The notes under the pieces are model-generated. The model ran no database searches. It was not told the origin of the DNA and worked only from the letters and a program-made list of their open reading frames with translations. 64,000 nt of DNA from Scytonema tolypothrichoides VB-61278 (GTDB lineage Bacteria > Cyanobacteriota > Cyanobacteriia > Cyanobacteriales > Nostocaceae). Shown here in pieces: positions 8,841 to 27,905 of this stretch (position 1 is the stretch's first letter; each line of letters starts with the position of its first letter). The translations under genes were made by a program, and so were the position numbers. The DNA lies in assembly GCF_000828085.3 (NCBI RefSeq), contig NZ_JXCA02000023.1:225655-289654 (forward strand), given 5' to 3'.

Positions 8841-9927
8841 AAAGACTGTGTTTTTTTGTGGGTGTCAATACTGAGTTATAGACATTGAGCAAAGAATGGA
8901 GATAATTTTTAATATCGTATGGCATCACACGTTCTCTTGCAGTTCTTCCCATGATCAACCTTAATTCCTCATTAGTAATTAAAGATAGTATTGCTGCTGA
9001 TAACTGTTGAATATCACCAGGTTTAACCAGCAAACCATTCTCATTAGAAACTACTAGCTCAGGAATTCCTCCAACTGGTGTAGTAATTACAGGCAATCCC
9101 CAACTCATCGCTTCAAGTATTGCCATCGGCAAACCTTCATTGTAAGAGGGCAATATGAATACATCCGCTTTAGCTAATAGTTTGTCTCGTTGTTGTGAGT
9201 TTACCCAACCCGTAAAAGTAATATTTTCTGTAAGATTTAGATTCTCAACTAACTTGCGCCCTTGTTCTATATCTCCATCTCCGGCGATAATTAGCTTTGC
9301 GCAGTTTTTTTGCTCAGCAGGTAGGTTGGCAAACGCCTCAATTAAATCAAATGTTCCCTTGCGTTGACCAACACGCCCGCAAAAGAGTAGAGTTACTTGA
9401 TTGACATTCTGGCGTTGCGGAATTTGTACAGGCAATTCTGTAGGGTTAGGCAGTACAAAAACTTTTTGTGGGTTTAGACCTAGATTCTGAACATAGAAAT
9501 CTTTCCAAGAATTTGACAAAACAATCAAACCATAGCATCCCCGGAATATTTGCCTAACCAATTGCTGTACCCATTGAGGAAGTTGAGAGTAATTTAAATG
9601 AAATTCAGCCCCATGAGCATGCATGACAACTGGCTTGTGAAAAAGAAAAGCGATGACGGCAAGAATGGATTTTCTCAAAAGACTACCACGTTCTGAAAAA
9701 TGAAGATACACAATATCTGTTTTCTGAGATAATAATTTCCAAATAAGCTTTGCTAAAGCTTTAGTAAATAGTATCAATTTATATGTGATCGAGCCATCAT
9801 CAAAGCTAGTAATATGTTGAATTTCAATATCAGTAGGAGCGTGCTTCACTAAAAGTTTTTCAACACTTGCGATGCCTCCATTTTGCTCTAAACTTGAACC
9901 CACCATGATAATTTTAACTTTCGTCAT
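8824..9927 (-). CDS. Glycosyltransferase family 4 (GT-B)
   Basis: A 367-residue GT-B enzyme. The N-terminal part has a GxxxxNGGIASVE loop (GSSLEQNGGIASVE) and the sequence MHAHGAEFHL. The C-terminal part has LLFCGRVGQRKG, then the E-x7-E nucleotide-sugar site in PSYNEGLPMAILEAMSWGLP and the following PVITTPVGGIPELV. These are classic GT4 features. It would transfer a sugar from an activated donor to the growing lipid-linked repeat unit at the cytoplasmic face. Donor and acceptor cannot be told from sequence. It is the first gene of a two-gene unit with the GH10 gene, and the conserved upstream module lies about 155 bp before its ATG. Confidence 0.92.
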   Translation of the reverse strand: MTKVKIIMVGSSLEQNGGIASVEKLLVKHAPTDIEIQHITSFDDGSITYKLILFTKALAKLIWKLLSQKTDIVYLHFSERGSLLRKSILAVIAFLFHKPVVMHAHGAEFHLNYSQLPQWVQQLVRQIFRGCYGLIVLSNSWKDFYVQNLGLNPQKVFVLPNPTELPVQIPQRQNVNQVTLLFCGRVGQRKGTFDLIEAFANLPAEQKNCAKLIIAGDGDIEQGRKLVENLNLTENITFTGWVNSQQRDKLLAKADVFILPSYNEGLPMAILEAMSWGLPVITTPVGGIPELVVSNENGLLVKPGDIQQLSAAILSLITNEELRLIMGRTARERVMPYDIKNYLHSLLNVYNSVLTPTKKHSLYESKA

Positions 9928-10081
9928 TTACCAATTCCCTTTCAGTGGTCTTCTTATAGTTAGTATTGGGTAAATAAATTAAAGTTGCCTTAACTTAGAT
10001 TCCCAAAGTATAAATTTTGGGTTAATTTCCTAAATGCTTTGCTACATGATTATAGTTTCCTTCTTAAACCGCAAGAGAAAC

Positions 10082-10180
10082 ACTATCTAATGGCTAATTA
10101 GAGCTTTAGATATACAGTATCCTCTTGGAAGTAATAAAAATATCCGCCTAGCTATCCACTTAGCAGTAGCGTGCAGATAG
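10082..10180 (-). promoter_or_regulatory. Conserved EPS upstream module, copy B
   Basis: Read on the minus strand toward the glycosyltransferase gene, this 99-bp stretch begins CTATCTGCAC, contains GGATAGCTAGGCGGA and GAGGATACTGTAT, and ends AAAGCTCTAATTAGCCATTAGATAG. It aligns over nearly its whole length with copies at 18768-18864 and 25498-25595. All three lie upstream of EPS genes in the same orientation relative to them. It could be an operator/promoter region or a mobile repeat. The rest of the gap 9928-10437 shows no gene. Confidence 0.7.
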
Positions 10181-10437: not shown

Positions 10438-11718
10438 CTAATCCTGCATGAATTCAACCTTATTAAAAAAATTTCCGCTTTTTTTAATTGGGTTTACAGA
10501 AGCTATTTGCAATGATAAAGCAACTGCTACATAAAGCACCCAAGTAATTCGATTTGATTCTAGTAAAGTGGATTCAGTCAGGTTACTCAATACTACATAA
10601 GTCAAATATAATATTGGCCACATCGCTTCTGCTGTCTTACTAAAACGTAACAAAGCTATTGCTTTGATATAAGCACGTAAAAATCCCAACAGAAATATCA
10701 ATAATCCGAGTAGACCCAAATCGAGCCAAATAGCTAAAAAACCGTTGTGAGGATGTGTAACTGGCCATCCAACTCCACGCAAAATGTAAGCAGATTCACC
10801 ATTTAAGCCTTGCCAAAATCCACCAAATCCATAGCCTAACCAAGGTTGTTTCCGGATCATGTCTATTACTAATGGCCACAAATCTGTACGACCAGTCAAT
10901 GTTGCATCTTTACCAATTGCATCAAATAAAGCTCCAGCATTACTACTCAAGAAGAAATATAAACCTTCACCTATAGTTGTTATAGCGATTAATGACGGTA
11001 TCATAATTTGATATGACCACCGGAAAGTTTGAAAAAGGTAAAATGCAAATATCATTATTACCAAGGTAACTAGAGCTGAGCTTGAAGCCGCACGTAATAA
11101 GATAAAGAACGACAAAGCAAAGGTAGCCCATATAAATATACGCTTATTTTTAACATTATGGCCAAGAAGCAGAAAAATAATACTACTCACTACCATCCTT
11201 GCACCAAGAACATTTTTGTGATGGAATACTCCCCGCCACTTTCCTTGATGATTGCCACCCATAACTCCATATTTGGGCAAGGCTACAGCAAATACAAAGC
11301 TCAGTAATATCTGTATACTAAATGCCAAAGCTAGCAACTGTAATTGCTCTTTTAAAGTGTAACGTGTGGCTAAATAAATTCCAAATAAGCTTGAACCAAA
11401 TAGAGTAAAGCCATTCTTAAGAGTTGTCGCTGGTTCAAAAGACCAAAGAAGAGAGAAGATAGGTAGTAAGATTATAATGCTAATTATAAATTTGTCTTGA
11501 CTTAAGACATAAAGTGTTTTACGCCACCGCAAAACCAGTAAAAATAAAGTAACTATATAAAGTAATAAATTAATAATCCGAATTAAAGAACTATCAAAAG
11601 TCACAGACTCGTCCTCTTGTACTCCTCCTGAGAGAACAAGATATAAAATAGCTCCGGAATAAATTAGTAATCCTGTGATTGTGAAGGTCAGTTCAGCAAG
11701 AATCAGCAGCTTTCTCAT
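10438..11718 (-). CDS. O-antigen ligase/polymerase (Wzy/WaaL family)
   Basis: A polytopic membrane protein of 426 residues with roughly 10-12 hydrophobic segments. It has one larger hydrophilic loop in the C-terminal half containing GRTDLWPLVIDM, PWLGYGFGGFW and THPHNGFLAIWLDLG. This loop, with its G-x-G-F and H-x-H-N-G motifs, is the hallmark of the Wzy_C/O-antigen ligase family. It would polymerise lipid-linked repeat units, or ligate polymer to an acceptor, at the periplasmic face. The start codon overlaps the stop of the upstream glycosyltransferase in an ATGA arrangement, so the two are translationally coupled. Confidence 0.92.
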   Translation of the reverse strand: MRKLLILAELTFTITGLLIYSGAILYLVLSGGVQEDESVTFDSSLIRIINLLLYIVTLFLLVLRWRKTLYVLSQDKFIISIIILLPIFSLLWSFEPATTLKNGFTLFGSSLFGIYLATRYTLKEQLQLLALAFSIQILLSFVFAVALPKYGVMGGNHQGKWRGVFHHKNVLGARMVVSSIIFLLLGHNVKNKRIFIWATFALSFFILLRAASSSALVTLVIMIFAFYLFQTFRWSYQIMIPSLIAITTIGEGLYFFLSSNAGALFDAIGKDATLTGRTDLWPLVIDMIRKQPWLGYGFGGFWQGLNGESAYILRGVGWPVTHPHNGFLAIWLDLGLLGLLIFLLGFLRAYIKAIALLRFSKTAEAMWPILYLTYVVLSNLTESTLLESNRITWVLYVAVALSLQIASVNPIKKSGNFFNKVEFMQD

Positions 11719-12833
11719 AAATTGACTAAATGATATTTTTGCTTTTTATTGACGATACTGTGATAAATATCAACTGTTTGAGCAGCAATATTCGCCCAAT
11801 TTAAATCTTGCTGACAGCGGGCTAATGCCGCAGTTTGCATCCGTTGTTGTAAGTTGCGATCGCTCAATAAGCAAATAATGGCATCAGCTAAAGCCTGAAC
11901 ATCCCCAGGAGGAACTAACAAACCATCTTTTTCATGTTTAATGACTTCTTTCAATCCACCAACATCAGACGCAACTATTGGTGTTCCCATGCCATAAGAT
12001 AAGGCAGCTACACCACTTTGAGATGCTTCAATATAGGGTAAAACAGAGATTGTAGCGCGTTGAAATAGTGCAGCTACATCTTCTTCAGGAATAAAGTCGT
12101 TGATTATTTCGATACGCTTAGTATCTAAGCCATTAGGAAAATATTGTTGAATATTTTCTCCTCTCCCAGCAATAATCAATTTAACTTCTGGAATTTTTGC
12201 AGCAATTAATGGTATTGCTTCTATTAAGTAGTTTAAACCCTTATAAGGCCAAATTCTACCAAAGAAAAGTAAGGTATAAGGTTCTCGTTGTATATTGTTT
12301 TCTTTAGCTCGACGTTGATATAAACTACCAAGTTCTCCATGTTGCAAAATATTCACTCGATGCTGGGGAATCCGAAAGTCTTGAGTAAGAATTTTCTTCA
12401 AAGATTCAGCATGAACAATTATTTCTTGAGACCTATAAAAAGAAATGCGTTTAGTATAGTCTGAACCAAAAATATTGTTGCGATCGCCTGGATGCCAAAA
12501 TACATCATGGATTGTTGTGACCAATGGTGGCATTTCACTAAGCAGCAACGTTAGGTCATACCAAGGATCATTAGTTTCCTGAACATGCAACACGTCGGGG
12601 TTTATTTTATGAAGCGATCGCATCATCTCCCTCATTGATAGTAGATTTCTGGGATCCCGAATGCGAGGTTTTTTGAAACTAAAAACTTGAATGCGAGGAT
12701 CAAGGGCATCCTTACAAAAATCAGCAATTTTACAAGGTTGTATCAAAGTTAAATCAACGTAATTTGTTAGTGCATTTGCTAACTCGATAGTATAGTCTTC
12801 AAAACAAAAATGGAGTAAAGCGACTCTGAGCAT
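11715..12833 (-). CDS. Glycosyltransferase family 4 (GT-B)
   Basis: This is a 372-residue GT4 enzyme. The C-terminal donor-binding half has TLLFFGRIWPYKGLNYLIEA, LIIAGRGENI and the motif SVLPYIEASQSGVAALSYGM followed by TPIVASDVGGLKEVI. The conserved first Glu of the E-x7-E pattern sits in YIEASQSG. The N-terminal half holds PDVLHVQE and TTIHDVFWHPG, acceptor-side features. It is coupled to the Wzy gene by a 4-bp overlap and lies 109 bp downstream of the flippase gene. Sugar specificity is unknown. Confidence 0.92.
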   Translation of the reverse strand: MLRVALLHFCFEDYTIELANALTNYVDLTLIQPCKIADFCKDALDPRIQVFSFKKPRIRDPRNLLSMREMMRSLHKINPDVLHVQETNDPWYDLTLLLSEMPPLVTTIHDVFWHPGDRNNIFGSDYTKRISFYRSQEIIVHAESLKKILTQDFRIPQHRVNILQHGELGSLYQRRAKENNIQREPYTLLFFGRIWPYKGLNYLIEAIPLIAAKIPEVKLIIAGRGENIQQYFPNGLDTKRIEIINDFIPEEDVAALFQRATISVLPYIEASQSGVAALSYGMGTPIVASDVGGLKEVIKHEKDGLLVPPGDVQALADAIICLLSDRNLQQRMQTAALARCQQDLNWANIAAQTVDIYHSIVNKKQKYHLVNL

Positions 12834-12942
12834 AATAATTTTCTACTTTTAATCCGTACTTAATTAAGCAAATTTTCCAGTTTTAACATCATTGAGATTC
12901 CAAACTTGAATTAGAATGGAAAGTGTTTTATTCACTGAATAT

Positions 12943-14382
12943 TTATTTGCTAGTTATCCTCGCCCATGCTGCTCGAAATCCTCCAACTTCATAAATGGCG
13001 ATCGAGCCAACAATTATTAAGTATATAGAAGTTAAAATAGCTAAAGTAATACCAAAGTTCAAATTTATTTTTTTTAGTATAACAAAAAAAGGTGTTATCA
13101 CCAAACATATCAGTAGAGGGTAGCGAAGAGATTTCATAACATTTATAACATACAGACGATTATAAAAAGCATACATATACTGACAGAAAGTAGAAGTATA
13201 AATTACTAGGTTTAAGATGACTGCTCCTATCAGCTTATAGCTTGGTACTATAATCAATCCTAACCCAAGCTTAAGAGCCGCGCTTATGCTAACATCGCGC
13301 ATGTTGACTTTTTCTAATCCATTTGCCATTAACACATAGCTAAGAGGGCGGTTAAAAGACCAAATAATTAGCGCCAATGAATATATACTTAAAACTGTTG
13401 CAGCTTCTCGAAAACGAGGGCTTCCATAGACAAACTCCAATAAATCACCTGCAAAGAAGAAGAAACCAATGGAAGTTGGTAGCGCAATTGAAAGTAAAAT
13501 TTCAATAATAAATTGAGAAGTTTTTTTCTGTTGTTCAACTCCTAGCTTGGCTGACTTTGCTAAACTTGGATAAACAGCTGAAGTAATGCTGTCAACAATT
13601 ATTAGAAATGGCTGCATTAATTGGACTACTCCCCCATAAAGTCCAACTAAAAACTCACTACCAGTGAGTGAAATAATTAAAATTTCTATCCTAGAATTGA
13701 TAACTGTTACACTATCAATTAAAAAGAAATAACTAGATGATTTCAATATTCTAACTATAAACTTATGGTCAATTATCCACTTAATTCGGGTATTATAGGT
13801 TAATAAAAACCATTGAACAAAAAGTATTAAAAACTCAGAAGTAACAAATAGTGCAGAGACAGCTTTCAGCCCATACCCCTGTTGCATTGCCAAAATCATC
13901 AGCAATAGACGAGTAACGTAAACAGGTGCAGCAGATAATGCAATTAAATGCATTCTTTCCTGCGCCTGAAAAATCGCCTCCGTCATATTAGAAAGTGAAA
14001 AGGGAATAACCGCTGCTCCTACGATATAGCATATGATAGATGTATCATTTTCATAAGGTAATAAAGTTACCGTTATCAATAAAGCTACATAACCAAATAA
14101 ACTAAGTAAAAGTTGTAATAAACTACAGTTGATTAAGTAAAAGCTTATATTTTCACTATCTGTTTCATGAGCGACTTCTCTAACAATTGAAATCTTGAGA
14201 CCAGCGGAAAAAATACCAACAAAAATAAAGTAAATACTGAATGCTAATAAATATCTCCCTAGTTCATCTGCTCCTAGAATGCGAGCTATTGATGCTGACA
14301 ATATAAACGTTACAACGCTTTGCGTTAACCGATTGATGAGTACAGACAAAGAATTACTCAACAGTTTTCGTTTATTTTCCAT
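12943..14382 (-). CDS. Wzx-type oligosaccharide flippase
   Basis: The 479-residue protein has 12-14 hydrophobic segments spread evenly along its length. It starts with NSLSVLINRLTQSVVTFILS and continues with ARILGADELGRYLLAFSIYF, a pattern typical of the polysaccharide biosynthesis/MATE-like flippase family (Wzx, MOP superfamily). It would flip lipid-linked repeat units from the cytoplasmic to the periplasmic leaflet, feeding the Wzy-type polymerase encoded just downstream. Base composition is more AT-rich than in neighbouring metabolic genes, as is usual for flippases and polymerases. Confidence 0.93.
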   Translation of the reverse strand: MENKRKLLSNSLSVLINRLTQSVVTFILSASIARILGADELGRYLLAFSIYFIFVGIFSAGLKISIVREVAHETDSENISFYLINCSLLQLLLSLFGYVALLITVTLLPYENDTSIICYIVGAAVIPFSLSNMTEAIFQAQERMHLIALSAAPVYVTRLLLMILAMQQGYGLKAVSALFVTSEFLILFVQWFLLTYNTRIKWIIDHKFIVRILKSSSYFFLIDSVTVINSRIEILIISLTGSEFLVGLYGGVVQLMQPFLIIVDSITSAVYPSLAKSAKLGVEQQKKTSQFIIEILLSIALPTSIGFFFFAGDLLEFVYGSPRFREAATVLSIYSLALIIWSFNRPLSYVLMANGLEKVNMRDVSISAALKLGLGLIIVPSYKLIGAVILNLVIYTSTFCQYMYAFYNRLYVINVMKSLRYPLLICLVITPFFVILKKINLNFGITLAILTSIYLIIVGSIAIYEVGGFRAAWARITSK

Positions 14383-14462
14383 AATGGTATAAGTTGATTT
14401 TTTTATAGCTTCAAGCTTAACTGACTGAACTGAATAACAGGACTTTAATTACTAATCCAAAC

Positions 14463-15527
14463 CTATTTAGGTTTTCTAGCAGAATGAACATCTTTGATAT
14501 AATCTACGACTGTGCTTGTGAAATGTTCGACAGAATATTGATCTACAGCAATTTGATAGGCACGCTCAGCACGCTCTCTTGCTTCCTCTGGGTTCTTAAG
14601 TAGATAGGAGATCGCTTGTTTAAGCCCCTCAACATCTCCAGGTTCTACAGTAAGTATTGCGTCTGTTTGAAGATAGGAGCTAAGTCCTCTTGTTTTAGTA
14701 GCAACGATCGGACGTTTACAAGCTACAGCTTCTTGGAGAGATGTGATACCAGATGCATAATTGCTTTCAAAAGAACTTACAACCACAATATCTGCATCAC
14801 GATATAGCTGAACTAGTTCATTCCACGCATAGAAGCGACGAGACATATTATCAGGAAGTACTTTTGGGAAAGAGCGCTTTAATTGTTTTGCATGCGGAGA
14901 AACGCCACTAATCCTAACATCAACATCCATCTTCTCAGTTGCAAGAGCTAAAAGTCGGTAATCTCTATTCTCTAAACCTACGCTTGCGATCATGGGTCTT
15001 ATTTTTTTGGCAGAAGAACCAGGCGAAAAGAAGTTAAAATCAACGCAAAAAGGAATGAAGCGAACTTGAGATTCTGGTAAGTTTAGATGCTGGCGCAAAC
15101 GATCGCGTTGATACGTAGAGCAAACTATAAATAAATCAATAGCACGGGAAACTCTCAACAATTTAGTAGATGCTAGCCCTCGAAGACGAGTAAAGTTTTG
15201 AAAAAATGCCACAATTGTAGGGCGATTCTGACGATTTGCAAACAGAGTAGCGATTGGGGTTGCAGAATCTTCGCAGTCACAGAAGACGATATCATCTTCA
15301 TCTAATTCATGAGATAATTTTCTTGCCAGTGCCCAATTTTCAGGTTTCCCTTCCCATACTGATAAAAGTTTATCTGTGTTGCTTGGCTCAACATGAGGCA
15401 AGAGAAGAGATGCCTTAAGCTTTTCTTCCAGTAAAAGGATGTAATCTCTCGGACGTTGTTTTGTCTGAGCTTCTTGTTTTATTTGCTCCCAATCGTCTAC
15501 CCGTCTTAATACGATATAAGGCTGCAT
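14463..15527 (-). CDS. Glycosyltransferase (GT-B, group 1)
   Basis: In this 354-residue protein the C-terminal half is of GT4 type. It has ADIVVVSSFESNYASGITSL, where E-S-N-Y-A-S-G replaces the usual E-G-x-x-x-x-x-E arrangement, then EAVACKRPIVATKTRGLSSY and LTVEPGDVEGLKQAI. The N-terminal half is less conserved and has no clear glycine-rich acceptor loop. It lies just upstream of the flippase gene (80 bp), as the first gene of the minus-strand flippase-GT-Wzy group. A donor sugar cannot be named. The degenerate acceptor half makes the substrate hard to predict. Confidence 0.85.
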   Translation of the reverse strand: MQPYIVLRRVDDWEQIKQEAQTKQRPRDYILLLEEKLKASLLLPHVEPSNTDKLLSVWEGKPENWALARKLSHELDEDDIVFCDCEDSATPIATLFANRQNRPTIVAFFQNFTRLRGLASTKLLRVSRAIDLFIVCSTYQRDRLRQHLNLPESQVRFIPFCVDFNFFSPGSSAKKIRPMIASVGLENRDYRLLALATEKMDVDVRISGVSPHAKQLKRSFPKVLPDNMSRRFYAWNELVQLYRDADIVVVSSFESNYASGITSLQEAVACKRPIVATKTRGLSSYLQTDAILTVEPGDVEGLKQAISYLLKNPEEARERAERAYQIAVDQYSVEHFTSTVVDYIKDVHSARKPK

Positions 15528-15915
15528 ATTTTTACCACCAAAAACACAATGAAATCAACTTAACTTCGAGATATTAAAAAGAAGTCATAATTCAGAATAA
15601 ATGAGTCAGAATCACTTTTGTTGGCGATTGAAACCCAATAATATGTAGACACAGTGTAGACTTTGGGTATTTAAACCCCAAGACGAGTCCGCCAGCGAGG
15701 TGAAGTTCATTTTGATTTCTGGCGACTGACGCCTTCGTTCTCCTATTAATGCAAAGGGCTATCTTCTTTGATTTTAATTAATATCCGAACTGCTAACAAG
15801 GAATGCCCCCTAAGTCACTCAACAGTATTCTTTACCTAACAGTGAATTCCGCTATTTAACGACTATCAGATTTTGGTCATACTCTTGGTAATTCACCAAT
15901 TGAGGAAAGTTTTAG
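15528..15915. other. Intergenic region
   Basis: A gap of 388 bp between two minus-strand genes. It should hold the promoter of the flippase-cluster glycosyltransferase, and near its other end the terminator of the NRPS-like gene. TTTGGGTATTTAAACCCCAA is a small inverted repeat near 15662. No copy of the conserved EPS upstream module and no gene are visible. Confidence 0.4.
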
Positions 15916-18690
15916 TTAAATAGAGGAACGCATAGCATCTGCATATACCTTCTCCAGACACAACTTCAGTTTTTCAGCCAACTCTCGAACATGAGGTTCT
16001 CTCAACACACTATAGTGATCACAAGCAAGACTATGAATTTCTAAGCCTCCACTCACCAAATCACCCCAGCCCAAGTCAAGGTGTTCGGCAAACTTCACAG
16101 GCTGCAACTTGGAACGAAAAAGAGTAACTGTTCCTGGATACACTTCAGGTTGATAATTTTTCCTAGCTTGCGAATTGGTGTCTAAAACCCTAAAGTCGTA
16201 ATCAGGTTCAGACAACTCATTAATCAGTTCATCCTTGTAATTTCCACCTTTAAGATGCGACTGCACCCAGTCTTTTACATACTTCAGCCTTTGTTGAGGT
16301 TTAAGTTGCTTAAGGTTACTTAAATGAACCCTTAGAAATTTAGTAATTGATGAGCGAGTTGGTTGCAAAGTTGGAGAACTAACATCAAATAAGCCTAGTA
16401 AAGCTACTTTCTGACCTTGGGAATGAAGTTGCTGAGCCATCTCGAATGCGACAACTCCCCCAAAAGAATAACCTGCTAGAAAGTAAGGACCATTGGGCTG
16501 AATTGTGCGAATCTCTTTAATGTAGTGGTTCGCCATGTCTTTAATACATCTTAAAGGCTCTTGTTTACCAGTTAGCCCTTGTGCTTGCAGTCCATAAACT
16601 GGTTGCTCCCGACCCAAATAATTTGCTAAGTGATAATAATCTAAAACGTTACCACCAACTGGATGAATGCAAAATAAAGGTAGTTTCGAGCCGCTTGGTT
16701 GAATTGGCACAAGCGAGGAAGTCCAATTTTCTGGTTGTTCTTCTTGGCGTAGAACATCAGCCAGTCCCTCAACCGTTGGCGTCTCAAACAGGACAGCCAA
16801 AGGAAGCTTTCTACTCCAAATTCTTTCAACATCAGCAATTAAGCGCACAGCTATCAGCGAATTACCTCCCGCTTCAAAGAAGTTGTCTGTGACGCCAATA
16901 GGTTGAACACCTAAAACTTTTTCCCAAATTTTCGTCAGCCGAAGTTCCAACTCATCTCGGGGAGGTACAAATGTTTCTTCAGGTTCTTGTTTAAAGTCCT
17001 CGATTCCTGGTAATGCACGGCGATCTATTTTACCAGTCGGCGTAAGGGGAAAAGCTGCAAGCATTACGAAGGCAGAAGGAACCATGTATTCAGGTAACTT
17101 GTGTTTTAGGTAGTTTCGGAGTTCTTTACTAAAAGCCGTTTGGTTAATTTTACTTGAGAATGTTTGCGGAACGATATAAGCAACCAGCCGCGTATTACCT
17201 AATGTATCATCTTTACCCATGACCACATTTTGCTTAATGCCAGGATAAAGAGCAATATTTGATTCTATTTCGCCTAACTCAACACGCTTGCCTCTAATCT
17301 TTACTTGATAATCAACACGACCCACATATGCTATGTTGCCATCAGGTAGATAGCGAGCTAAGTCTCCTGTCTTGTAGAGGTGGGTGCCTAGGCGATTGGC
17401 TTTGCCACTGCGCTTTGCGCAATCGCTAAAGGGATTGGGAATAAATATTTTTTCCGTCAAATCTGGACGCTTGAAATAGCTGCGGGTAAGACAAGTACCA
17501 CTTATGTACATTTCCCCTATCTCGCCTACTGGTGCAGGGCGCAGATCTTCATCTAATATGTAAATTTGCGTGTTGGCGATCGCACCTCCTATAGGGACAA
17601 TTGTTACTTGATCTTCATCTGAGTCTGGAATCGGATAGACAGCAACAATGCCAGTGGTCTCGGTCTGACCATACATATTTATAAAGCTGACATCCTGCTT
17701 AAACTCAAACCGCCACTTCCTCGGAATGTCAGACAGTAATGGTTCACTAGCAGATAAAATTAACCGGAGTTGATTATCTAAAATATTTTTTCTTTGGTCA
17801 GGTGCCAAATTAGCCAGTACATCGGTACAACTCCGCCAATAAGAGGGAACAAGGTCGATGATGGTAATATGATGCTGCTTAATAAATTCAAACAGTGCTA
17901 ATGGTTTTTGTAGCTGCTGGGCAGTTGCTATAACAACAGTAGCTCCTTGAGAAAACGGCACCATGAGTTGCCTGATTGATGAGGAAAATGAGAAGGATGC
18001 TGTGTGGAGATAAATATCTTTGCTGTGAAGTTGCAATGCCTTACTCATTGCTTGAACATAATGATTAATGTTCACATGAGGAATTTCAACTCCTTTAGGC
18101 TTACCAGTAGAGCCAGAAGTATAAATCACATAGGCAAGGTGCTCTAATTTCACCTCACTGACTGGGTTTGCGTCACTTTCTCGTGCAATAGTCTCCCATT
18201 CAGTATCCAGACAAACCAGCCGTGAATCTAACTGGGGAAGTTCATTGACCAGATGCTTTTGAGTTAGCAGTATTAATACTTGAGTTTCTTCTACTATAAA
18301 AGCAATGCGTTCTTTTGGATAGGCGGGATCTAAAGGTACATAAGCTCCACCAGCTTTGAGAATACCTAACAACGCCACTACAATCTCTAGAGAGCGCTCC
18401 ATACAAATGCCTACAAGGCTCTCTGGCCTCATGCCCATTGCTTGCAGATAGTGTGCCAGTTGATTGGCGCGGCAGTTCAGCTGTTGGTAGGTTAACTGTT
18501 TCTCTTCAAAAATGACTGCAACAGCGTCTGGTCTTTGCTCCACCTGGTTTTCAAACCATTTATGAAAACAAAAACCTTTGTCGGTATCAAGAGTTTGCCT
18601 GAAATCTGGCTGTGTTACTTCATTAATATATACTTCGGTGTTACGTGTGTTATGTGTAGATATTACTATTGGTATAACTTGTTTGTTCAT
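15916..18690 (-). CDS. NRPS-like protein: adenylation, carrier and thioesterase domains
   Basis: A 924-residue single module without a condensation domain. The adenylation domain spans about 40-560, with core A3 TSGSTGKPKG (191-200), TGD and the A10 lysine K554. A carrier domain follows with the phosphopantetheine serine S611 in AGGNSL. A type I thioesterase has GYSFGG with nucleophile S742. In core A4 the usual F-D-A is F-S-S, so the Asp that binds the alpha-amino group is replaced by Ser236. The substrate is therefore probably not an ordinary alpha-amino acid. The residues around 424-437 come from an inserted repeat. The position in the EPS locus suggests an acyl or amino-acyl decoration of polymer or lipid, but this is inference. 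Confidence 0.92.
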   Translation of the reverse strand: MNKQVIPIVISTHNTRNTEVYINEVTQPDFRQTLDTDKGFCFHKWFENQVEQRPDAVAVIFEEKQLTYQQLNCRANQLAHYLQAMGMRPESLVGICMERSLEIVVALLGILKAGGAYVPLDPAYPKERIAFIVEETQVLILLTQKHLVNELPQLDSRLVCLDTEWETIARESDANPVSEVKLEHLAYVIYTSGSTGKPKGVEIPHVNINHYVQAMSKALQLHSKDIYLHTASFSFSSSIRQLMVPFSQGATVVIATAQQLQKPLALFEFIKQHHITIIDLVPSYWRSCTDVLANLAPDQRKNILDNQLRLILSASEPLLSDIPRKWRFEFKQDVSFINMYGQTETTGIVAVYPIPDSDEDQVTIVPIGGAIANTQIYILDEDLRPAPVGEIGEMYISGTCLTRSYFKRPDLTEKIFIPNPFSDCAKRSGKANRLGTHLYKTGDLARYLPDGNIAYVGRVDYQVKIRGKRVELGEIESNIALYPGIKQNVVMGKDDTLGNTRLVAYIVPQTFSSKINQTAFSKELRNYLKHKLPEYMVPSAFVMLAAFPLTPTGKIDRRALPGIEDFKQEPEETFVPPRDELELRLTKIWEKVLGVQPIGVTDNFFEAGGNSLIAVRLIADVERIWSRKLPLAVLFETPTVEGLADVLRQEEQPENWTSSLVPIQPSGSKLPLFCIHPVGGNVLDYYHLANYLGREQPVYGLQAQGLTGKQEPLRCIKDMANHYIKEIRTIQPNGPYFLAGYSFGGVVAFEMAQQLHSQGQKVALLGLFDVSSPTLQPTRSSITKFLRVHLSNLKQLKPQQRLKYVKDWVQSHLKGGNYKDELINELSEPDYDFRVLDTNSQARKNYQPEVYPGTVTLFRSKLQPVKFAEHLDLGWGDLVSGGLEIHSLACDHYSVLREPHVRELAEKLKLCLEKVYADAMRSSI
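17392..17426. repeat. 35-bp palindromic repeat inserted at a HIP1-type site, copy 1
   Basis: The sequence begins GCGAT and ends ATCGC, so removing the central 27 bases restores GCGATCGC. It contains TGCGCTTTGCGCA. It lies in frame inside the adenylation domain, adding nine residues between strands of the core. Similar 35-mers lie at 39814, 40699 and 56485. Confidence 0.75.
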
Positions 18691-18767
18691 AGCTCACTTA
18701 ACTCCCAGACTTGTGACTTGTAAATCAAGTCTAAGTACAGTATACGTCTCAAATAGTGATGAGCAAT

Positions 18768-18864
18768 ACTATCTAGCGGTTAATTAAAACCCTGTGTATA
18801 CAGCATCCTCTGGGGAGATGAAATTGTCCACATGACTATCCACTGGGGTGTAGCGTGTTGAAGC
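18768..18864 (-). promoter_or_regulatory. Conserved EPS upstream module, copy C
   Basis: On the minus strand toward the NRPS-like gene this copy reads CACGCTACACCCCAGTGGAT, GTGGACAATTTCATC, GAGGATGCTGTAT and CTAGATAGT. It aligns with the copies at 10082-10180 and 25498-25595, and ends about 78 bp before the ATG. It shares GTGGACAATTT with copy A. The rest of the gap 18691-19185 shows no gene. Confidence 0.7.
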
Positions 18865-20166: not shown

Positions 20167-21399
20167 ATGAAAAATTTACTATCTGAAAATGAAATAACTA
20201 GGCTTGAGGTTCTTCGGCAATATCGGATTCTGGATACTGTCTCCGAAGCAGCCTTCGATGACCTCACCCTTTTAGCAGCACAAATTTGTAACACTCCGAT
20301 AGCTTTAATCAGCTTGATTGATGAGTGTCGTCAATGGTTCAAGTCAAAAGTCGGATTAGATGCTGAGTCAACACCACGGAATATAGCGTTTTGTGCTCAT
20401 GCGATTTTGCAGCCCGACATTTTGATTGTTCCCGATACACGACTCGACGAGCGATTCGCCACCAACCCACTGGTAACTTCTGACCCGTATATTCGGTTTT
20501 ATGCCGGTGTTCCGCTGATTGCACCCAATGGATATGTACTGGGAGCACTTTGTGTCATTGACCGTGTCCCACGACAGCTTAGCTCACAGCAAGTGCAGGC
20601 ATTGCGTACCTTAAGTCGTCAAGTTATTGCCCAAATGGAGTTAAAGCGTAATTTAGACAACCTGGAACGTATAACCACCGCTGAACGCCAACACATTGAA
20701 GATCTCATTTCTGCCCTTTCCCACGATATGCGTACTCCGTTGCTCGCAACTCGCGCCACTCTGCGTGCTATACTCGGTGGTGCTTTTGGTTCCATAAGCG
20801 ACACTTGGACACACCTGCTTGAAGATTGCCGCCAGGCTAACGAAGGCCTCCTTAAGCTTGTCGAAGCTCTCGTAGATATTTCTCGCCATAAAATAGAAGT
20901 TTGTAAGACTCTGAACTGCGAGATCCTTGATTGGAAAAATATCTTTGCCCAAGCCATTATCCAAAGCGATACCACGAGTAAGCGAAAGTGTGCAATTATC
21001 TATAAAATTCCTTCGTCACTGCCCACTGTCTGCGGTGATCAGCTTGACATTCAACGGGTTGTACAAAACCTGCTGAATAACGCTGTACAAGTGAGTGAGC
21101 AGAACCAGCAAGTTATCCTTGAGGTAGCACCGCTTGGAGTTGACAAAGTGAAGGTATCTGTACATGACTGTAGACCAGGAATTCCTCCCCAAGAAAAGGA
21201 AAGGCTCTTCCATCGCTTTAGTCACAGACGAGGACGAGGTGGCTCAGATGAACTGAGTCTCTACTTGTGCCGCCAAATTGTAGAGGCTCACGGTGGTACT
21301 ATCAACGTCGAAAGTACTCTCGGTGAGGGTAGCACCTTCTGGTTTACTCTACCTGTTGCCCCAGTTGGGGCTAAATTCCAGGATCACCAACAGATGTAA
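20167..21399 (+). CDS. GAF-domain sensor histidine kinase with degenerate ATP-binding boxes
   Basis: A 410-residue soluble protein. An N-terminal GAF domain (about 20-160) has the FKSKVGLDAESTPR block of a common cyanobacterial sensor family. HisKA has the H-box SALSHDMRTPLL with H186. The N-box QNLLNNAVQVS (N301, N304, N305) is present. The G1 box, D-x-G-x-G in the family, reads DCRPGI (G336 replaced by Arg). The G2 region, GLGLYL in the neighbouring paralogue, reads ELSLYL with both glycines lost. ATP binding is probably impaired. It may act as a phosphatase or partner of the kinase encoded at 22564. Its GAF domain resembles that of the 40468-42543 kinase. Confidence 0.88.
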   Translation: MKNLLSENEITRLEVLRQYRILDTVSEAAFDDLTLLAAQICNTPIALISLIDECRQWFKSKVGLDAESTPRNIAFCAHAILQPDILIVPDTRLDERFATNPLVTSDPYIRFYAGVPLIAPNGYVLGALCVIDRVPRQLSSQQVQALRTLSRQVIAQMELKRNLDNLERITTAERQHIEDLISALSHDMRTPLLATRATLRAILGGAFGSISDTWTHLLEDCRQANEGLLKLVEALVDISRHKIEVCKTLNCEILDWKNIFAQAIIQSDTTSKRKCAIIYKIPSSLPTVCGDQLDIQRVVQNLLNNAVQVSEQNQQVILEVAPLGVDKVKVSVHDCRPGIPPQEKERLFHRFSHRRGRGGSDELSLYLCRQIVEAHGGTINVESTLGEGSTFWFTLPVAPVGAKFQDHQQM

Positions 21400-21536: not shown

Positions 21537-22260
21537 ACAGCAGTAGGAAAACAATTCTGTAAGCGATCGCCTGTATCATCCCTTAAAAAGTAACGCTCAT
21601 CTCCACAACGCTTCACCCATATGCGATTCGGCTTATCTTAGTGCCATTCCACTTTGGGCTAGTCTTTATTGGCACCAATGGCAGGGGAATCTACTAGAGA
21701 ACACCGCAAACTAACAAGTAGGGCAGTTGATCACATCGACATTACATTGAAACCGTCTTTAGTGCCATCACTCATCTTTTTCCAAAGTCAATTCACGCGG
21801 TCAAAAACTCAGGGTTTTTACTTAAAAAAAAAGCATTTTTATTTTTATGTATTTTTACATAGTTATTTGAAATACGTCATATGTAAGACGAGAAATATGT
21901 TTTGTACTTAGATAATTGACTGAAGAAAACCTGCGGTTGCGCGATCGCACTCTATAAATTTCAGTCTGTCATTCATTACCCGCAAATTGAGTTAAGTAGA
22001 AAAAGTAAGAAATTTTCTGTCTAACTACATTAATTAAATTTTTTAGTGTATCATTTGAAAATAATAAATAAACTATAACTTGTCTTGCACAAGATTAATT
22101 CTGTGAAGGAAAATAAAAATGGTTTATTCTGCTGAACGATCATCTGGCGAAAAACTTTACAAATTTATGTAAGTTGATTCAACGAAGAAGTTTATATGAA
22201 GATGGCTAAATGAGGCCTGGTGGCGTTGTTTAATACAAGTAAAGATAGTGGTGACTTGTA
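21537..22260. other. Non-coding, AT-rich gap
   Basis: I see no supported gene between the terminator and the IS1-like relic. A 17-codon frame (22119-22172) with a purine-rich GAAGGAAAA before its ATG is too short to judge. GGTGGCGTTGTTTAATACAA near 22219 may be the left end of the IS1-like remnant that follows. Confidence 0.35.
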
Positions 22261-22563: not shown

Positions 22564-24030
22564 GTGCGTTTATTTGCTTCATCCACTTTGAAAACTCATT
22601 TATTTGCACCTCTGTACATTAGCCTCGGGATGCTAGTGTTATTGATACTTGGCCAACAAGGCTTAAACCTGTTGATAGCCTTCCATACTCAGCAAGCAGG
22701 CGATTTGGTAACCCGTACTTTAATTGTGGAACGTGAAGGAGAACGTCTGCTCAACGCTGTGATAGATGAGGAAACAAACTTTCTAGAAGTTCGCAGTAAT
22801 GGACAGTTGCCTTTCTACAGCAGCCTCAGCCGCCTATACACTCTTCTACAAGACAATCCTACTCAACTCCAACAACTCGATAAGATCAAAAATGTCCATA
22901 CCCGGTGGCAAAGCCAGTTGGCTCAGAGGGATACCTTGAGCTTGAGTAGTAGCTTTACTTGGGAGGAAAAGACCTTATTCGATTCCCTGCGCACTCATAT
23001 TCGCGTCTTGCTTGAGGGCGAAGAGAAACTGTTGGAGGAACGCAAGCATAATTTACAGCAACTCAATCATGTAAACACTGCTGTAAACATCTTTAGCACA
23101 ATCGTGATCTTGGTAGGAGTGGGCTTTAATCTCCGGTTTTTGTATCGACGAGTAGAGGTTCGCTTGCACAAGTTAATTAACGTAGGTGAAGCTTGGCGGA
23201 CGGGTCAAATGGAAGTCCGGCTTGGCTATTCGTCTGCCGATGAAATCGGTCGGCTGGCTAGGGTTCTCGACGCAATGGCAGGCGAGGTTCGCTATCGTCA
23301 GGAATGCATTGAGGAGCACACTCAACAGCTTGAAAACCTGATTTCTGCTCTCTCCCACGACCTGCGCACTCCTCTGCTTGCTAGCCGTAATACTTTAGAA
23401 AGTATGCTCAAAGGAGCTTTTGGTCCTGTTAGTGACACTTTGAGGGAAGTGTTCCAAGAGTACCGCGAAGCTAACGATGATCTCCTCAAGCTTGTGGAAG
23501 TCCTATTGAACGTCTCCCGTTATGAAGCTGGTTATTGCACTCACCTAAACTACGAGCCCCTTAACTGGGAAAAAATTTTTGTCAAAACAATTGCTCAGAT
23601 AAAAGCTACTTCAAAGCGTGAGTTAACCATCAGCTATAAAATTTCTCAATTACTGCCGACAGTCAACGGTGATGAGATAGAGATCCAACGGGTTGTACAA
23701 AACCTGCTTGATAACGCTGTGCGCGTGAGTGAGCCAAATAAAGAAATCCTCTTGAAGGTAACGCCTGTTGGGAAAGCTCAAGTGCAGGTTTCTGTGCGCG
23801 ATCACGGTTCTGGGATTGCGCCACAGGAGAAGGAACAACTCTTCCATCGCTTCGTTCAAGGACGAGGTCGGCGTGGAAAATCTGGTCTGGGTCTGTACTT
23901 GTGTCGTCAAATTATTGAAGCTCACGGAGGCAGCATTGGCGTCAAAAGTTCTCTCGGAGAGGGTAGCATTTTCTGGTTTACCCTCCCACTAACCCCAGAT
24001 AAAGCTAGGTATAAGCATGAAAAGATGTAG
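22564..24030 (+). CDS. Membrane sensor histidine kinase (CHASE3-like, HAMP)
   Basis: A protein of 488 residues starting at GTG. A membrane segment at about 17-38 is followed by a helical extracytoplasmic sensor of CHASE3 type (about 40-170), a second membrane segment near 178-200 and a HAMP linker (RRVEVRLHKLINVGEAWRTG). The H-box is SALSHDLRTPLL, the N-box QNLLDNAVRVS, G1 DHGSGI and G2 SGLGLYLC, all intact. It is a close paralogue of the degenerate kinase at 20167 in the catalytic half. The stop lies eight bases before the NarL-type regulator gene, its likely partner. Confidence 0.93.
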   Translation: MRLFASSTLKTHLFAPLYISLGMLVLLILGQQGLNLLIAFHTQQAGDLVTRTLIVEREGERLLNAVIDEETNFLEVRSNGQLPFYSSLSRLYTLLQDNPTQLQQLDKIKNVHTRWQSQLAQRDTLSLSSSFTWEEKTLFDSLRTHIRVLLEGEEKLLEERKHNLQQLNHVNTAVNIFSTIVILVGVGFNLRFLYRRVEVRLHKLINVGEAWRTGQMEVRLGYSSADEIGRLARVLDAMAGEVRYRQECIEEHTQQLENLISALSHDLRTPLLASRNTLESMLKGAFGPVSDTLREVFQEYREANDDLLKLVEVLLNVSRYEAGYCTHLNYEPLNWEKIFVKTIAQIKATSKRELTISYKISQLLPTVNGDEIEIQRVVQNLLDNAVRVSEPNKEILLKVTPVGKAQVQVSVRDHGSGIAPQEKEQLFHRFVQGRGRRGKSGLGLYLCRQIIEAHGGSIGVKSSLGEGSIFWFTLPLTPDKARYKHEKM

Positions 24031-24038
24031 GAGAAAGA

Positions 24039-24728
24039 ATGATACCAACGATACTTGATAATGGCAAACAGAAAACTGTGCAGATTCTGCTGGTCGATGA
24101 CCACACTTTAATACGCCGAGGAATGAAAGGTCAATTTAGCCTTGAACCTGGTTTTAGTGTAATTGGAGAGGCAGGTGACGGAGCACAGGCTATTGAATTA
24201 GCTGCTCAACTCCAGCCAGATGTCGTTTTGATGGACATTGATCTGCCAGTTATGGATGGAATTAGAGCTACGCAGCAGATAAAAAGTAGTTGCACAGCTA
24301 CTCGTATCCTTGCCTTGAGTGCCTTTGACAACGACACCCAGGTTATGGGAATGCTCGCAGCAGGTGCAGATGGTTACTGTCTCAAGACCATCGAATGGGA
24401 ACAACTCATTGCTGTCATTCAATTGATCCTCCAAGGTGGTGCTTATCTGGATCCTCAAATAGCTCAAAAGGTTGCCCGGATGCTCAAGCCCACCGTTGTT
24501 TCCGGCGAGATTCCTGAGTCTGGAGGACTCGAACAACCAGTTCTTAGTAATCGTGAACGCGAAATTCTTAAACTTATTGCCAAAGGATACTCAAACCAAG
24601 AGATTGCTAAAGAACTCTATCTCTCACTAGGAACCGTCAAATCTTACGTGCGTATGGTTCTCAATAAACTCAGTGTTGATGATCGCGTCCAGGCAGCAGC
24701 TCTAGCTGTGCGCGAAGGGTTGATTTAA
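24039..24728 (+). CDS. NarL/FixJ-family response regulator
   Basis: In this 229-residue protein the receiver domain (about 13-130) has the acidic pair in VDDHT, the phospho-acceptor aspartate in VVLMDIDLPVMDG and the lysine in YCLKTIEWE. A LuxR-type HTH (about 165-225) has LSNREREILKLIAKGYSNQE and LYLSLGTVKSYVRMVLNKLSV. AGGAG lies six bases before the ATG. It is in an operon with the CHASE3-like kinase (8-bp gap). Its position between EPS genes makes it a candidate regulator of the locus, perhaps through the conserved upstream module. That is inference. It overlaps the convergent gene at 24725 by a few bases. Confidence 0.95.
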   Translation: MIPTILDNGKQKTVQILLVDDHTLIRRGMKGQFSLEPGFSVIGEAGDGAQAIELAAQLQPDVVLMDIDLPVMDGIRATQQIKSSCTATRILALSAFDNDTQVMGMLAAGADGYCLKTIEWEQLIAVIQLILQGGAYLDPQIAQKVARMLKPTVVSGEIPESGGLEQPVLSNREREILKLIAKGYSNQEIAKELYLSLGTVKSYVRMVLNKLSVDDRVQAAALAVREGLI

Positions 24729-25024
24729 CCTAGGAGGACTTCCCGCAGACAGACATCAAGTTCTGTAAAAGTGGTAACCCATGGTAGCTTTTCATCTATA
24801 GGATCTTCTAACCACAAAATGTATCGGTGATTGATCTGGCGCAGGAAGTTCTCAGGAATGGGTAGACATAGCACCAAGACATCGGGCGCAAACAGAGTTA
24901 GCTCTTCATCCGTAGGAATACCATAGTAGGGGAACACTTCTGCACCTTGTTTGAGACAGTAGCTGCTAACGCGCTGTACTGTAGTAACTCTGCTACCAAT
25001 GACCATAATTCGATGCCTATTCAT
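24725..25024 (-). CDS. Small protein, possible degenerate receiver-like fold
   Basis: A 99-residue protein convergent with the NarL-type regulator; the stop codons overlap. The sequence RIMVIGSRVTTVQRVSSYCL and a later hydrophobic strand PDVLVLCLPIPENF recall the beta1 and beta3 strands of response-regulator receivers. The acidic pair is absent, and Cys stands where the phospho-aspartate would be (VLVLCLP). I cannot confirm this by sequence alone. It may be a cyanobacterial orphan that interacts with the neighbouring kinase system. The tail-to-tail overlap could also allow antisense interference. Confidence 0.5.
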   Translation of the reverse strand: MNRHRIMVIGSRVTTVQRVSSYCLKQGAEVFPYYGIPTDEELTLFAPDVLVLCLPIPENFLRQINHRYILWLEDPIDEKLPWVTTFTELDVCLREVLLG

Positions 25025-25146: not shown

Positions 25147-25398
25147 GAGAACTTCCCGTGAATAGTTAGGTTTTAATAAGCAATTGCCCTTGGAAATGAT
25201 ATAGCTGAGTCATTTTCCTCTGATTGGCTAAGATGACGTCTTTTCCGTCAAAAGACCATATCAGCATTAGCACGCAAATGCTACATATCTAGCAAAATTA
25301 CCACGTAGTTGTCCAACGCCAACTACAGCCAATCATGAAAGTTTAGCACCAAAACGCGTTAATCTCATCATTCATTTAGGTTAATCTTATCATTCATT

Positions 25399-25466
25399 AG
25401 ACCTCTCCAAAAATTCATCTCAACCCTTTACTTTCTAGAGTTAACGTTCAATTTTTGGAGAGGTCT
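25399..25466. repeat. 68-bp hairpin element with 17-bp perfect arms, copy 1
   Basis: The 17-bp arm AGACCTCTCCAAAAATT (25399-25415) is repeated in perfect inverse as AATTTTTGGAGAGGTCT (25450-25466), around 34 bases of unrelated DNA. A second, diverged copy lies at 39531-39591. The layout fits a small non-autonomous element built from the ends of an insertion sequence. Confidence 0.75.
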
Positions 25467-25497
25467 ATTTAGTAGATGAATCTAGTATAAGACTTAA

Positions 25498-25595
25498 ACT
25501 ATCTGCACACTACAGCCAAGCGGATAGCTAAGTGGACAATTTTCTCCTCTAATGAGGATGCTGTATGCATAAAGCTCTAATAGCCATCAGATAGT
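25498..25595 (+). promoter_or_regulatory. Conserved EPS upstream module, copy A
   Basis: This 98-bp copy runs from ACTATCTGCACACTACAGCC through GGATAGCTAAGTGGACAATT and GAGGATGCTGTAT to GCCATCAGATAGT. Its two ends ACTATCTG and CAGATAGT form a perfect 8-bp inverted repeat. It lies about 260 bp upstream of the glycosyltransferase start, in the same orientation relative to the gene as the copies at 10082 and 18768. Confidence 0.72.
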
Positions 25596-25857
25596 ATTTC
25601 TATCGGTATTTACGGAGGAAACTATAGTAAGACTTTAATCTAAAAGTCTTAAATCAGATCAAGTTTTTTGTTGTGGTTCCCCATAAACAGGTGATGCAAC
25701 TATGGTAAAAGCCCCGATAGCTCAAGATTTTAGCCTAGTTGCACTCATAGTTTGTATGACCAGCAATTGGACTGGCTTGATATCAGCTAGACATAAGGCT
25801 GTAAGTATATTCCGGGTTAACACAAACCAGATATACCGGTAAAAATACACATTCTTT

Positions 25858-26667
25858 ATGCTTTTAATTACCGTATCTACCTCCTTGAAAGAACGAACTT
25901 TAAATTATATGGCAGACAAAGTTAGTTTTCTCAACACCCATTTTGATCGTATGTCCTCATCTGAGGCGATCGAACTGTTACTGGCACGGTTATTGAAGCG
26001 GCAGGGGGGTCGCGTGTATTATGCTAACGCGCACACCATGGTAACAGCTGCCCAAAACCCGTCACTGGCAGAGGCTTTAGAACACAGTGATATGTTGTTG
26101 GCAGACGGAAGTGGAGTTCGCCTGGGTAGCGCCTTGTTGGGTACACCATTGGTGCATAACCTCAATGGCACTGACCTAGTTCCGGCTCTGTGCAAGGCTG
26201 GGGCGGCGAAAGGCTTATCAGTCTATCTTCTAGGTGCCAAACCAGACGTAGTTGAAGAAGCGGCAGCTAACCTCAAGAAACGGTATCCTGGCTTGGTAAT
26301 TGCAGGAACTCATCATGGCTATTTCTCTGAAGCAGAAACCTCACAGGTATTAGAGAACATCCGGGCAGCGCGTCCGCACTTGCTGTTAGTGGCGATGGGC
26401 GTACCACTACAGGAAATTTGGATCAATCAATATGCTTGCCAACTGCCTGGTATTACTTGCATGGGTGTGGGGGGTCTGTTCGATTTTGTGGCTGAACGTG
26501 TACCCCGTGCCCCGTTTGCAATTCGTGCTGTTGGTATGGAGTGGGTGTGGCGACTAACAATGGAACCAAGTCGACTATGGCGGCGCTATCTCATAGGCAA
26601 CCTTGTCTTCTTCGGTTTAGTCATAACTTACGCCTTTTCCCCACGCCAGGATGAACAAACAACATAG
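25858..26667 (+). CDS. WecB/TagA/CpsF-family glycosyltransferase (GT26)
   Basis: The family signature is complete. VYYANAHTMVTAAQNPSL is followed by DMLLADGSGVRLGSALLG, where the Asp of ADG is the family's key residue, and then LLGAKPDVVEEAAANLKKRY. Later come LLVAMGVPLQEIWI and GVGGLFDFVAERVPRAP. The enzyme would add a sugar, often N-acetylmannosaminuronate, N-acetylmannosamine or glucose, to a lipid-linked intermediate. The frame opens at 25858, but an internal ATG at 25909 (MADKVSFLNTHFDRM) is a likely alternative start. It heads the plus-strand EPS unit, with the STAS and initiating transferase genes behind it. Confidence 0.92.
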   Translation: MLLITVSTSLKERTLNYMADKVSFLNTHFDRMSSSEAIELLLARLLKRQGGRVYYANAHTMVTAAQNPSLAEALEHSDMLLADGSGVRLGSALLGTPLVHNLNGTDLVPALCKAGAAKGLSVYLLGAKPDVVEEAAANLKKRYPGLVIAGTHHGYFSEAETSQVLENIRAARPHLLLVAMGVPLQEIWINQYACQLPGITCMGVGGLFDFVAERVPRAPFAIRAVGMEWVWRLTMEPSRLWRRYLIGNLVFFGLVITYAFSPRQDEQTT

Positions 26668-26732
26668 GAACATAAACCTGACAGCCAAATCAAATCAATA
26701 AATATGTACTAGCAGAACCAATAGTAAGATTT

Positions 26733-27071
26733 ATGACTCTCACACAAGAATGTCAATTGATTGTGCTTCAGCCTCAAGGGCGCTTAGATTGCCAACATGG
26801 TAAGGTTCTGAAGGAACAACTTTCTAGTTTAGTGCCGAAATCCCACCACCTTTGGGTGATTGATCTAGCCCAAGTAGATTCTATGGATAGTTCAGGGTTA
26901 GCCGCCCTAGTGATGGGGCTTGCCGCTGTACGTTCCAGTGGTTGTCGTCTTGTCATTTGCAACCTGCAAGCGCCTATCCGGATAATCTTTGAACTGACTC
27001 AACTAGATTCAGTGTTTGAAATTTTTGAGAGTTACGACGCTGTCTTGACCACGGTTAACGTTCAGTCGTGA
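26733..27071 (+). CDS. STAS-domain anti-sigma-factor-antagonist-type protein
   Basis: A single-domain protein of 112 residues. QGRLDCQHGKVLKEQL and VIDLAQVDSMDSSGLAALV give the STAS fold; the serine in DSSGL is at the site phosphorylated in SpoIIAA/RsbV-type proteins. Such proteins switch partners depending on phosphorylation by an anti-sigma kinase. Neither a kinase nor an anti-sigma factor is adjacent. It sits between two polysaccharide transferase genes, 65 bp after the first, and is probably co-transcribed, so it may tune synthesis post-translationally. Confidence 0.88.
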   Translation: MTLTQECQLIVLQPQGRLDCQHGKVLKEQLSSLVPKSHHLWVIDLAQVDSMDSSGLAALVMGLAAVRSSGCRLVICNLQAPIRIIFELTQLDSVFEIFESYDAVLTTVNVQS

Positions 27072-27212
27072 AGTCTTGATCAGGCGCTATGGTCTTAGCG
27101 ATTCACTTTAGTTAACCAATTAATAATCCTGCCAAAGCTGAACAACTTGCTCAATAGACTGACTTTTCAGCCAATTAACTTCCTAAACTCACCTACTGAA
27201 ACTCTGATCACA

Positions 27213-27905
27213 ATGTTTAACTTCTCTACTTCCGACTCAATTCACATACCAGTTCTAGATAGTGCCTACACCGTTCCTTTTGCCAAACTTCCAGTTCATG
27301 TTTCTGTAACAAGCAAGGCGAAGCGTATAATTGACATCCTAGGTGCCATTGTAGGACTAGGGATTACGGCAGTCGTAGCGATTCCTCTTGCTATAGCTAT
27401 TATGCTGGATAACCCAGGAGCCATCTTTTACAGTCAAATTCGCTGCGGTCTGAACGGACGCTCTTTCCGGATCTGGAAATTCCGCTCTATGGTGGTTGGG
27501 GCTGAACGACTCAAGCATTTAGTCAATAATGAAGCTAAAGATCATCATATCTTCAAGAATGAGAATGACCCCCGCATGACTCGTGTAGGCAAGTTTCTCC
27601 GCCGTACCAGCCTAGACGAACTCCCTCAGTTCTGGAACGTACTGTTGGGGGAAATGAGTTTAGTTGGTACCCGTCCCCCCACTCCTGATGAAGTGATGCA
27701 CTACTCAAGTCACCACTGGAAACGGTTGAACGTCAAACCGGGCATGACAGGCGAATGGCAGGCTAATGGTCGCTCCACCGTCAAGGACTTTGAAGATATT
27801 GTTCGCATGGATTTAAACTATCAACACAATTGGTCTATTGCTTACGATATTAGTTTGATATTGAAAACCCTAAAGGTTGTCTTAAATAAGAATGGCGCTT
27901 GCTAG
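27213..27905 (+). CDS. Initiating sugar-1-phosphate transferase (WcaJ/WbaP catalytic domain)
   Basis: A bacterial sugar transferase of 230 residues. KRIIDILGAIVGLGITAVVA forms the single membrane-dipping helix. The catalytic part has SFRIWKFRSMVVGAE, ENDPRMTRVGKFLRRTSLDE, LPQFWNVLLGEMSLVGTRPP and PGMTGEWQANGR, all hallmarks of the polyprenyl-phosphate hexose-1-phosphate transferase family. It lacks the N-terminal multi-TM part of full WcaJ/WbaP, as do PglC-like short enzymes. It would start repeat-unit synthesis on undecaprenyl phosphate. The frame opens at a TTG (27147), but ATG 27213 is preferred; no strong ribosome-binding site precedes either. Confidence 0.93.
   Translation: MFNFSTSDSIHIPVLDSAYTVPFAKLPVHVSVTSKAKRIIDILGAIVGLGITAVVAIPLAIAIMLDNPGAIFYSQIRCGLNGRSFRIWKFRSMVVGAERLKHLVNNEAKDHHIFKNENDPRMTRVGKFLRRTSLDELPQFWNVLLGEMSLVGTRPPTPDEVMHYSSHHWKRLNVKPGMTGEWQANGRSTVKDFEDIVRMDLNYQHNWSIAYDISLILKTLKVVLNKNGAC

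Follow-up and report, generated by a model that had tools for sequence, protein, structure and literature searches.

A conserved multi-site box precedes three EPS units in Scytonema tolypothrichoides VB-61278 and is a probable operator of a NarL-type two-component system

A conserved DNA module (the box) was found ahead of each of three exopolysaccharide (EPS) units in the window, i.e., the whole stretch of 64,000 nucleotides of Scytonema tolypothrichoides DNA that was analysed. Judged from the sequence comparisons, the boxes are very probably multi-site operators through which the two-component system encoded at 22564 and 24039 activates the whole EPS pathway. Three copies had been described in an earlier note on this DNA; each aligned over its full length when read in the orientation of its gene, and the earlier coordinates were correct to within a few bases (Table 1). 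The conservation continued for about 30 bp past the end reported there (length about 98 bp) and included a -10-like element. Together, the units that follow copies A, B and C constitute a complete Wzx/Wzy pathway for one secreted polysaccharide, and they jointly encode the initiating sugar transferase, a flippase, a Wzy-type polymerase, a chain-length co-polymerase and glycosyltransferases.

Table 1. Boxes, downstream units and associated genes (window positions, except where a locus is named).
Feature	Position	Strand	Content
Copy A	10078-10180	-	ahead of GT4 / GH10 / Wzz-type tyrosine kinase unit
Copy A, putative operator + promoter	10049-10175	-	GGATA-type sites 10157-10153, 10145-10141, 10122-10118; AGATA 10088-10084
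Copy A, -10-like TATAAT	10054-10049	-	
Unit after copy A	5266-9927	-	GT4 8824-9927; GH10 7659-8840; Wzz/tyrosine-kinase polysaccharide co-polymerase 5266-7482
Copy B	18764-18864	-	ahead of NRPS-like / GT4 / flippase / GT4 / Wzy unit
Copy B, putative operator + promoter	18737-18859	-	sites 18841-18837, 18829-18825, 18808-18804, 18774-18770
Copy B, -10-like TACTGT	18742-18737	-	
Unit after copy B	10438-18690	-	NRPS-like A-PCP-TE 15916-18690; GT 14463-15527; flippase 12943-14382; GT4 11715-12833; Wzy-type 10438-11718
Copy C	25498-25599	+	ahead of WecG/TagA-type GT26 / STAS / sugar-transferase unit
Copy C, putative operator + promoter	25505-25628	+	sites 25522-25526, 25534-25538, 25556-25560, 25589-25593
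Copy C, -10-like AACTAT/TATAGT	25620-25628	+	
Unit after copy C	25858-27905	+	WecG/TagA GT26 25858-26667; STAS 26733-27071; bacterial sugar transferase 27147-27905
NarL/FixJ-family response regulator	24039-24728	+	Pfam Response_reg PF00072 + GerE/LuxR HTH PF00196; proposed box-binding protein
Histidine kinase	22564-24030	+	CHASE3, HisKA, HATPase; directly upstream of the 24039 regulator
Second histidine kinase	20167-21399	+	GAF, HisKA, HATPase; kinase domain similar to that of 22564
99-aa stand-alone protein, predicted pseudo-receiver, unannotated	24725-25024	-	convergent with the 24039 regulator gene; conserved
Small protein, no Pfam match (VDTTEQVYQLIKQW...)	L219:9280-9576, L224:10956-11309, L217:9865-10122	-, +, +	directly downstream of box, non-Nostocaceae

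The anatomy of the box was evaluated via its homologs. A total of 193 Nostocaceae genomes were searched, and full-length copies were found in several dozen; the surroundings of these copies were fetched and the profile was iterated, which gave 65 copies in 31 regions, and the family alignment comprised 45 copies. According to this alignment, the box and its putative promoter spanned about 125 bp per copy and contained the conserved blocks CcAagcGGATAgctA-gTGGAtAATTTTAt, aGGATgcTgTat and TAgCCatcAGATAGTaTTT, followed by gaaAcTnTAc past the end reported earlier. The first two sites formed a 12-bp tandem direct repeat of CYAAGYGGATAR, the similarity score of which (13.9) exceeded the highest value among 1000 column permutations (12.7); the third site scored 8.4, above the 95% level of the permutations (7.9). 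After the repeat pair came a GGAT site at a distance of about 22 bp, then an AGATAGT site some 34 bp beyond it and the block tAcTnT after another 30–32 bp. This spacing was nearly rigid: the first interval was 12 bp in all 47 of the 47 copies, the second 22 bp (20–23) and the third 34–35 bp, and the final interval of 30–32 bp was observed in 33 of the 36 measured copies. The last block resembled a -10 element (TATAAT in copy A and TATAGT in copy C). No good -35 was present, and the AGATAGT site ended at the position expected for the -35 hexamer. A -10-like block preceded by a site that ends where -35 would stand suggests a promoter whose activity depends on an activator that binds upstream of -35. 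A point against binding by a NarL-type protein is that the family members of known structure mostly recognise inverted heptamers, whereas the box here is an array of direct repeats.

In the proposed mechanism, the 22564 sensor kinase, and perhaps also the 20167 kinase, would phosphorylate the 24039 regulator, and several regulator molecules would occupy the GGATA-type direct repeats, i.e., the two tandem 12-bp repeats and the sites about 22 and 34 bp on. Because the AGATAGT site, the last of the series, stops where the missing -35 would be, the regulator bound there may bring RNA polymerase to the -10 element 30–32 bp downstream. With one box ahead of each of the three units, one signal would turn on the entire Wzx/Wzy assembly line. 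Repeated sites at fixed spacing, a fixed distance to -10 in the absence of a good -35 and co-occurrence with a regulator, which are the marks of an activator-type operator-promoter, were all found. The main alternative is that the same two-component system uses the box as an operator but that the bound 24039 protein represses, with de-repression upon loss of the signal. The sign of regulation is not given by sequence data, and the kinase acts negatively in the regulation of synechan (PMC8205485). However, the lack of -35, the location of all sites upstream of -10 with the last one ending at -35 and the fixed -10 spacing form the layout of activator sites, and repression is considered rather unlikely.

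The earlier suggestion that the module is a shared promoter or operator with multiple binding sites, with the 24039 regulator as a candidate, was favoured by the comparative data on co-occurrence, spacing and orientation. Orthologs of the regulator (76–100% identity) were found in 31 of the 33 box-bearing Nostocaceae genomes and in 0 of the 160 others (Fisher p ~1e-33). One of the two exceptions had a partial regulator ORF beside the box, and the box contig of the other began inside the cluster. Two further genomes had a 66% identical regulator and no box. Among 391 genomes of the order, both elements were present in 19, the box only in 1 (a 67% complete assembly) and the regulator only in 3, the regulators of which (65–70% identity) were among the most diverged orthologs. 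Moreover, the box was within the fetched stretch at 27 of 29 loci with a regulator of at least 74% identity and at 0 of 51 loci with regulators of at most 41%. The carriers included Nostoc flagelliforme, Chlorogloeopsis fritschii PCC 6912, N. punctiforme NIES-2108 and Calothrix spp., as well as Aliterella atlantica CENA595 and a Pleurocapsales strain outside Nostocaceae.

The box and the regulator were usually physically linked, and co-inheritance of an island hence explains part of their co-occurrence. Linkage alone does not account for it, because the boxes of one genome were located at 372,110 and 377,890 of a scaffold that carried the regulator at 4,101,583 (up to 3.7 Mb apart), the boxes and the regulator of another genome were on different contigs, and elsewhere box and regulator were kept together with a changed target. 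Furthermore, among the proteins always near the box, a recognised DNA-binding domain occurred only in the 24039-type regulator. Regulators without a box differed at several HTH positions, e.g., VRNIL for VRMVL; a tie between these differences and the absence of the box is suggestive only. At one locus of genome G096 (L119:9450-12694), a paralogous regulator (74–76%) was observed near WecB/STAS/sugar-transferase genes; the only box there was weak and diverged (E 8e-5), and operator and regulator may have diverged from one another in this case. The box might instead be read by a different, unlinked DNA-binding protein or by an alternative sigma factor, with the local regulator being coincidental, as the case for the 24039 regulator is one of association only. 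The near-perfect co-occurrence with one regulator across several families, including target swaps, argues against such a reader, which is regarded as very unlikely; the SigJ J-Box (GGGaAtacT, PMC6495340) occurred in 1 of 65 copies when one mismatch was allowed, and the XssQ site (AAGTTNNAC, PMC8205485) also occurred in 1 of 65.

Activation by the 24039 regulator would be of a kind already known, i.e., a regulator that coordinates EPS operons, as RcsB or XssS/R/Q does. RcsB is a NarL/FixJ-family regulator of enterobacterial capsule/colanic acid operons that acts via a box upstream of the promoter; in that system the RcsA-RcsB heterodimer binds the RcsAB box, a short imperfect palindrome. The NarL/FixJ-family regulator and the exopolysaccharide operons are common to both systems, whereas the direct-repeat array here extends over about 80 bp and RcsA is lacking; the 24039 protein scored 51.9 against the RcsB NCBIfam model, the cutoff of which is 235. 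XssS/XssR/XssQ of synechan in Synechocystis 6803 is likewise a two-component system within a Wzx/Wzy EPS cluster, in which a consensus common to the promoters of several units activates those units (PMC8205485). The DNA-binding activator in that cluster is the STAND protein XssQ, which has the single or tandem site AAGTTXXAC (PMC8205485); here the site was absent from all but 1 of 65 copies, and the shared genes included no recognised STAND protein. The xss system was without substantial effect on xssF, xssH and xssK (Wzy, Wzx and PCP) (PMC8205485), whereas the boxes here precede units that hold Wzy, Wzx and PCP-type genes. The SigJ J-Box, which is an extended -10 of hormogonium genes in Nostoc punctiforme (PMC6495340), resembles the box as a common promoter element that coordinates a gene set in Nostocaceae, but the J-Box sequence itself was not found in the box.

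A structured leader had also been suggested; a 5' leader RNA of this sort, riboswitch-like or an attenuator, would control the three units. Copy C folded with paired termini, and the element stands ahead of genes in a fixed orientation. However, RNAalifold gave 0 consensus pairs on 45 sequences, folding in the gene orientation was no better than that of shuffles (z -1.4 to +1.2), and the -10-like element is situated downstream of the box, all of which render a leader extremely unlikely. The opposite strand of copy C folded with a z of -2.3 relative to shuffles, and an Rfam search of the window gave no match.

The genome-wide profile search that had been proposed earlier was carried out. In a blastn search of the 7.9 Mb genome with copy C, the self match had an E of 1.6e-47, followed by copy A (80% identity, E 1.3e-16) and copy B (74%, E 5.9e-8), and the next match had an E of 4.55. 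A model based on sequence alone and built from 45 homologs returned the same three (E 1e-28, 1e-24 and 2e-24), with the next at 0.17. Exactly three copies were present, all inside the EPS cluster and one per EPS unit; this is the opposite of the many copies, free of EPS or orientation bias, that the earlier note had named as the sign of a dispersed repeat. Among relatives, about 60 of the 63 copies with a following ORF read toward that ORF, and the usual targets were WecG/TagA, Wzz-like, GT2, NRPS-like, STAS and sugar transferase genes. Each cluster had 1–4 boxes, typically ahead of WecG/TagA, Wzz-like/Wzy/flippase and GT2 units; the units vary, and the control logic is the same. The copies grouped by downstream gene and not by genome (between-genome mean of 69% for the wecB-type copies, and 54% for copies within one genome), indicating that the boxes are old and have kept their positions. 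Chance insertion of a small mobile or dispersed repeat at three places, as might be suggested by the patchy distribution among genomes and by the terminal inverted repeat of copies A and C, is a negligible prospect given only three copies in 7.9 Mb, in one cluster, with fixed orientation and orthology by downstream gene, and given that a similar search did detect a true dispersed palindrome nearby.

This 70-bp palindrome (TAGACCTCTCCAAAAATT ... AATTTTTGGAGAGGTCTA, 25398-25467) lies just upstream of copy C and was matched, in full or in part, at six further places distributed over several contigs of the genome; in contrast to the box, it is a genuine MITE-like dispersed repeat. The terminal inverted repeat ACTATCTG/CAGATAGT, which had been attributed to copy A, was present in copy C and less perfect in copy A. 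Its left arm was not conserved, with low information across the family alignment, and the repeat was dropped as a functional feature. In the six other genomes of the same genus, no convincing box, regulator or pseudo-receiver was found; the cluster was gained by, or kept only in, this species.

The 22564 kinase adjoined the regulator at nearly all box loci and is its probable partner, and the 20167 kinase is a possible second input. The 99-aa protein had no Pfam or NCBIfam match. Its structural model (pLDDT 88) matched receiver domains in Foldseek, including the CikA pseudo-receivers, and an invariant Cys (C53) occupied the expected position of the phospho-acceptor Asp. The protein is thus modelled as a receiver fold without the phospho-acceptor Asp, i.e., a pseudo-receiver. 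Homologs were found beside the regulator in about 50 fetched loci, and in the Nostocaceae survey the protein was present in 30 of 193 genomes, only among those that also had the box. The gene was missing in two genomes (G117 and G181) and broken in two others (G035 and G099), all four of which kept the box and the regulator, indicating that the protein is an accessory and not the box reader. A main role of the box in driving the divergent pseudo-receiver gene was considered and set aside, because copies A and B have no such gene alongside and because some box-bearing genomes have lost it.

In other families, the kinase, regulator, pseudo-receiver and box stayed together, and the target gene was replaced by an unrelated protein of 85–128 aa without known function or by a receiver-domain protein. 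Hence, the box is not specific to EPS. The small protein listed in Table 1 is apparently the target in the non-Nostocaceae genomes. The four components may together be a control cassette that is transferable within Cyanobacteriales; its pseudo-receiver would tune the regulator without phosphorylation, and the cassette would have been rewired to different targets (the small unknown or receiver-domain protein in other families, and whole polysaccharide pathways or NRPS genes in Nostocaceae). This broader reading is tentative and held with somewhat less than even confidence.

In the open-licence literature, no description of this operator or motif, regulon or cassette was found, nor was one found of a NarL-type regulator of Nostoc EPS or of stand-alone cyanobacterial pseudo-receivers. 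Little is known about how matrix-forming cyanobacteria (desert crust, lichen and soil Nostoc; Chlorogloeopsis; Calothrix) control EPS production. The proposed activation is directly testable, since the putative operator-promoter is delimited to about 125 bp, the regulator is named and the complete regulon is predicted to consist of three promoters. Moreover, the motif alone predicts targets in other strains, including those distant from the regulator, and the accompanying pseudo-receiver suggests an unusual layer of control.

Two further observations were made. In one genome (G129, L118:10216-10354), a box was located ahead of NRPS genes with no EPS genes recognised nearby, and the box cassette may thus control a natural-product cluster there. 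In relatives, a protein of about 707 aa, GH74-like by eye, sits between the two kinases; the window contains a 19-codon remnant (21650-21706) that is 79–84% identical to the C-terminus of this protein, and the gene seems to have decayed.
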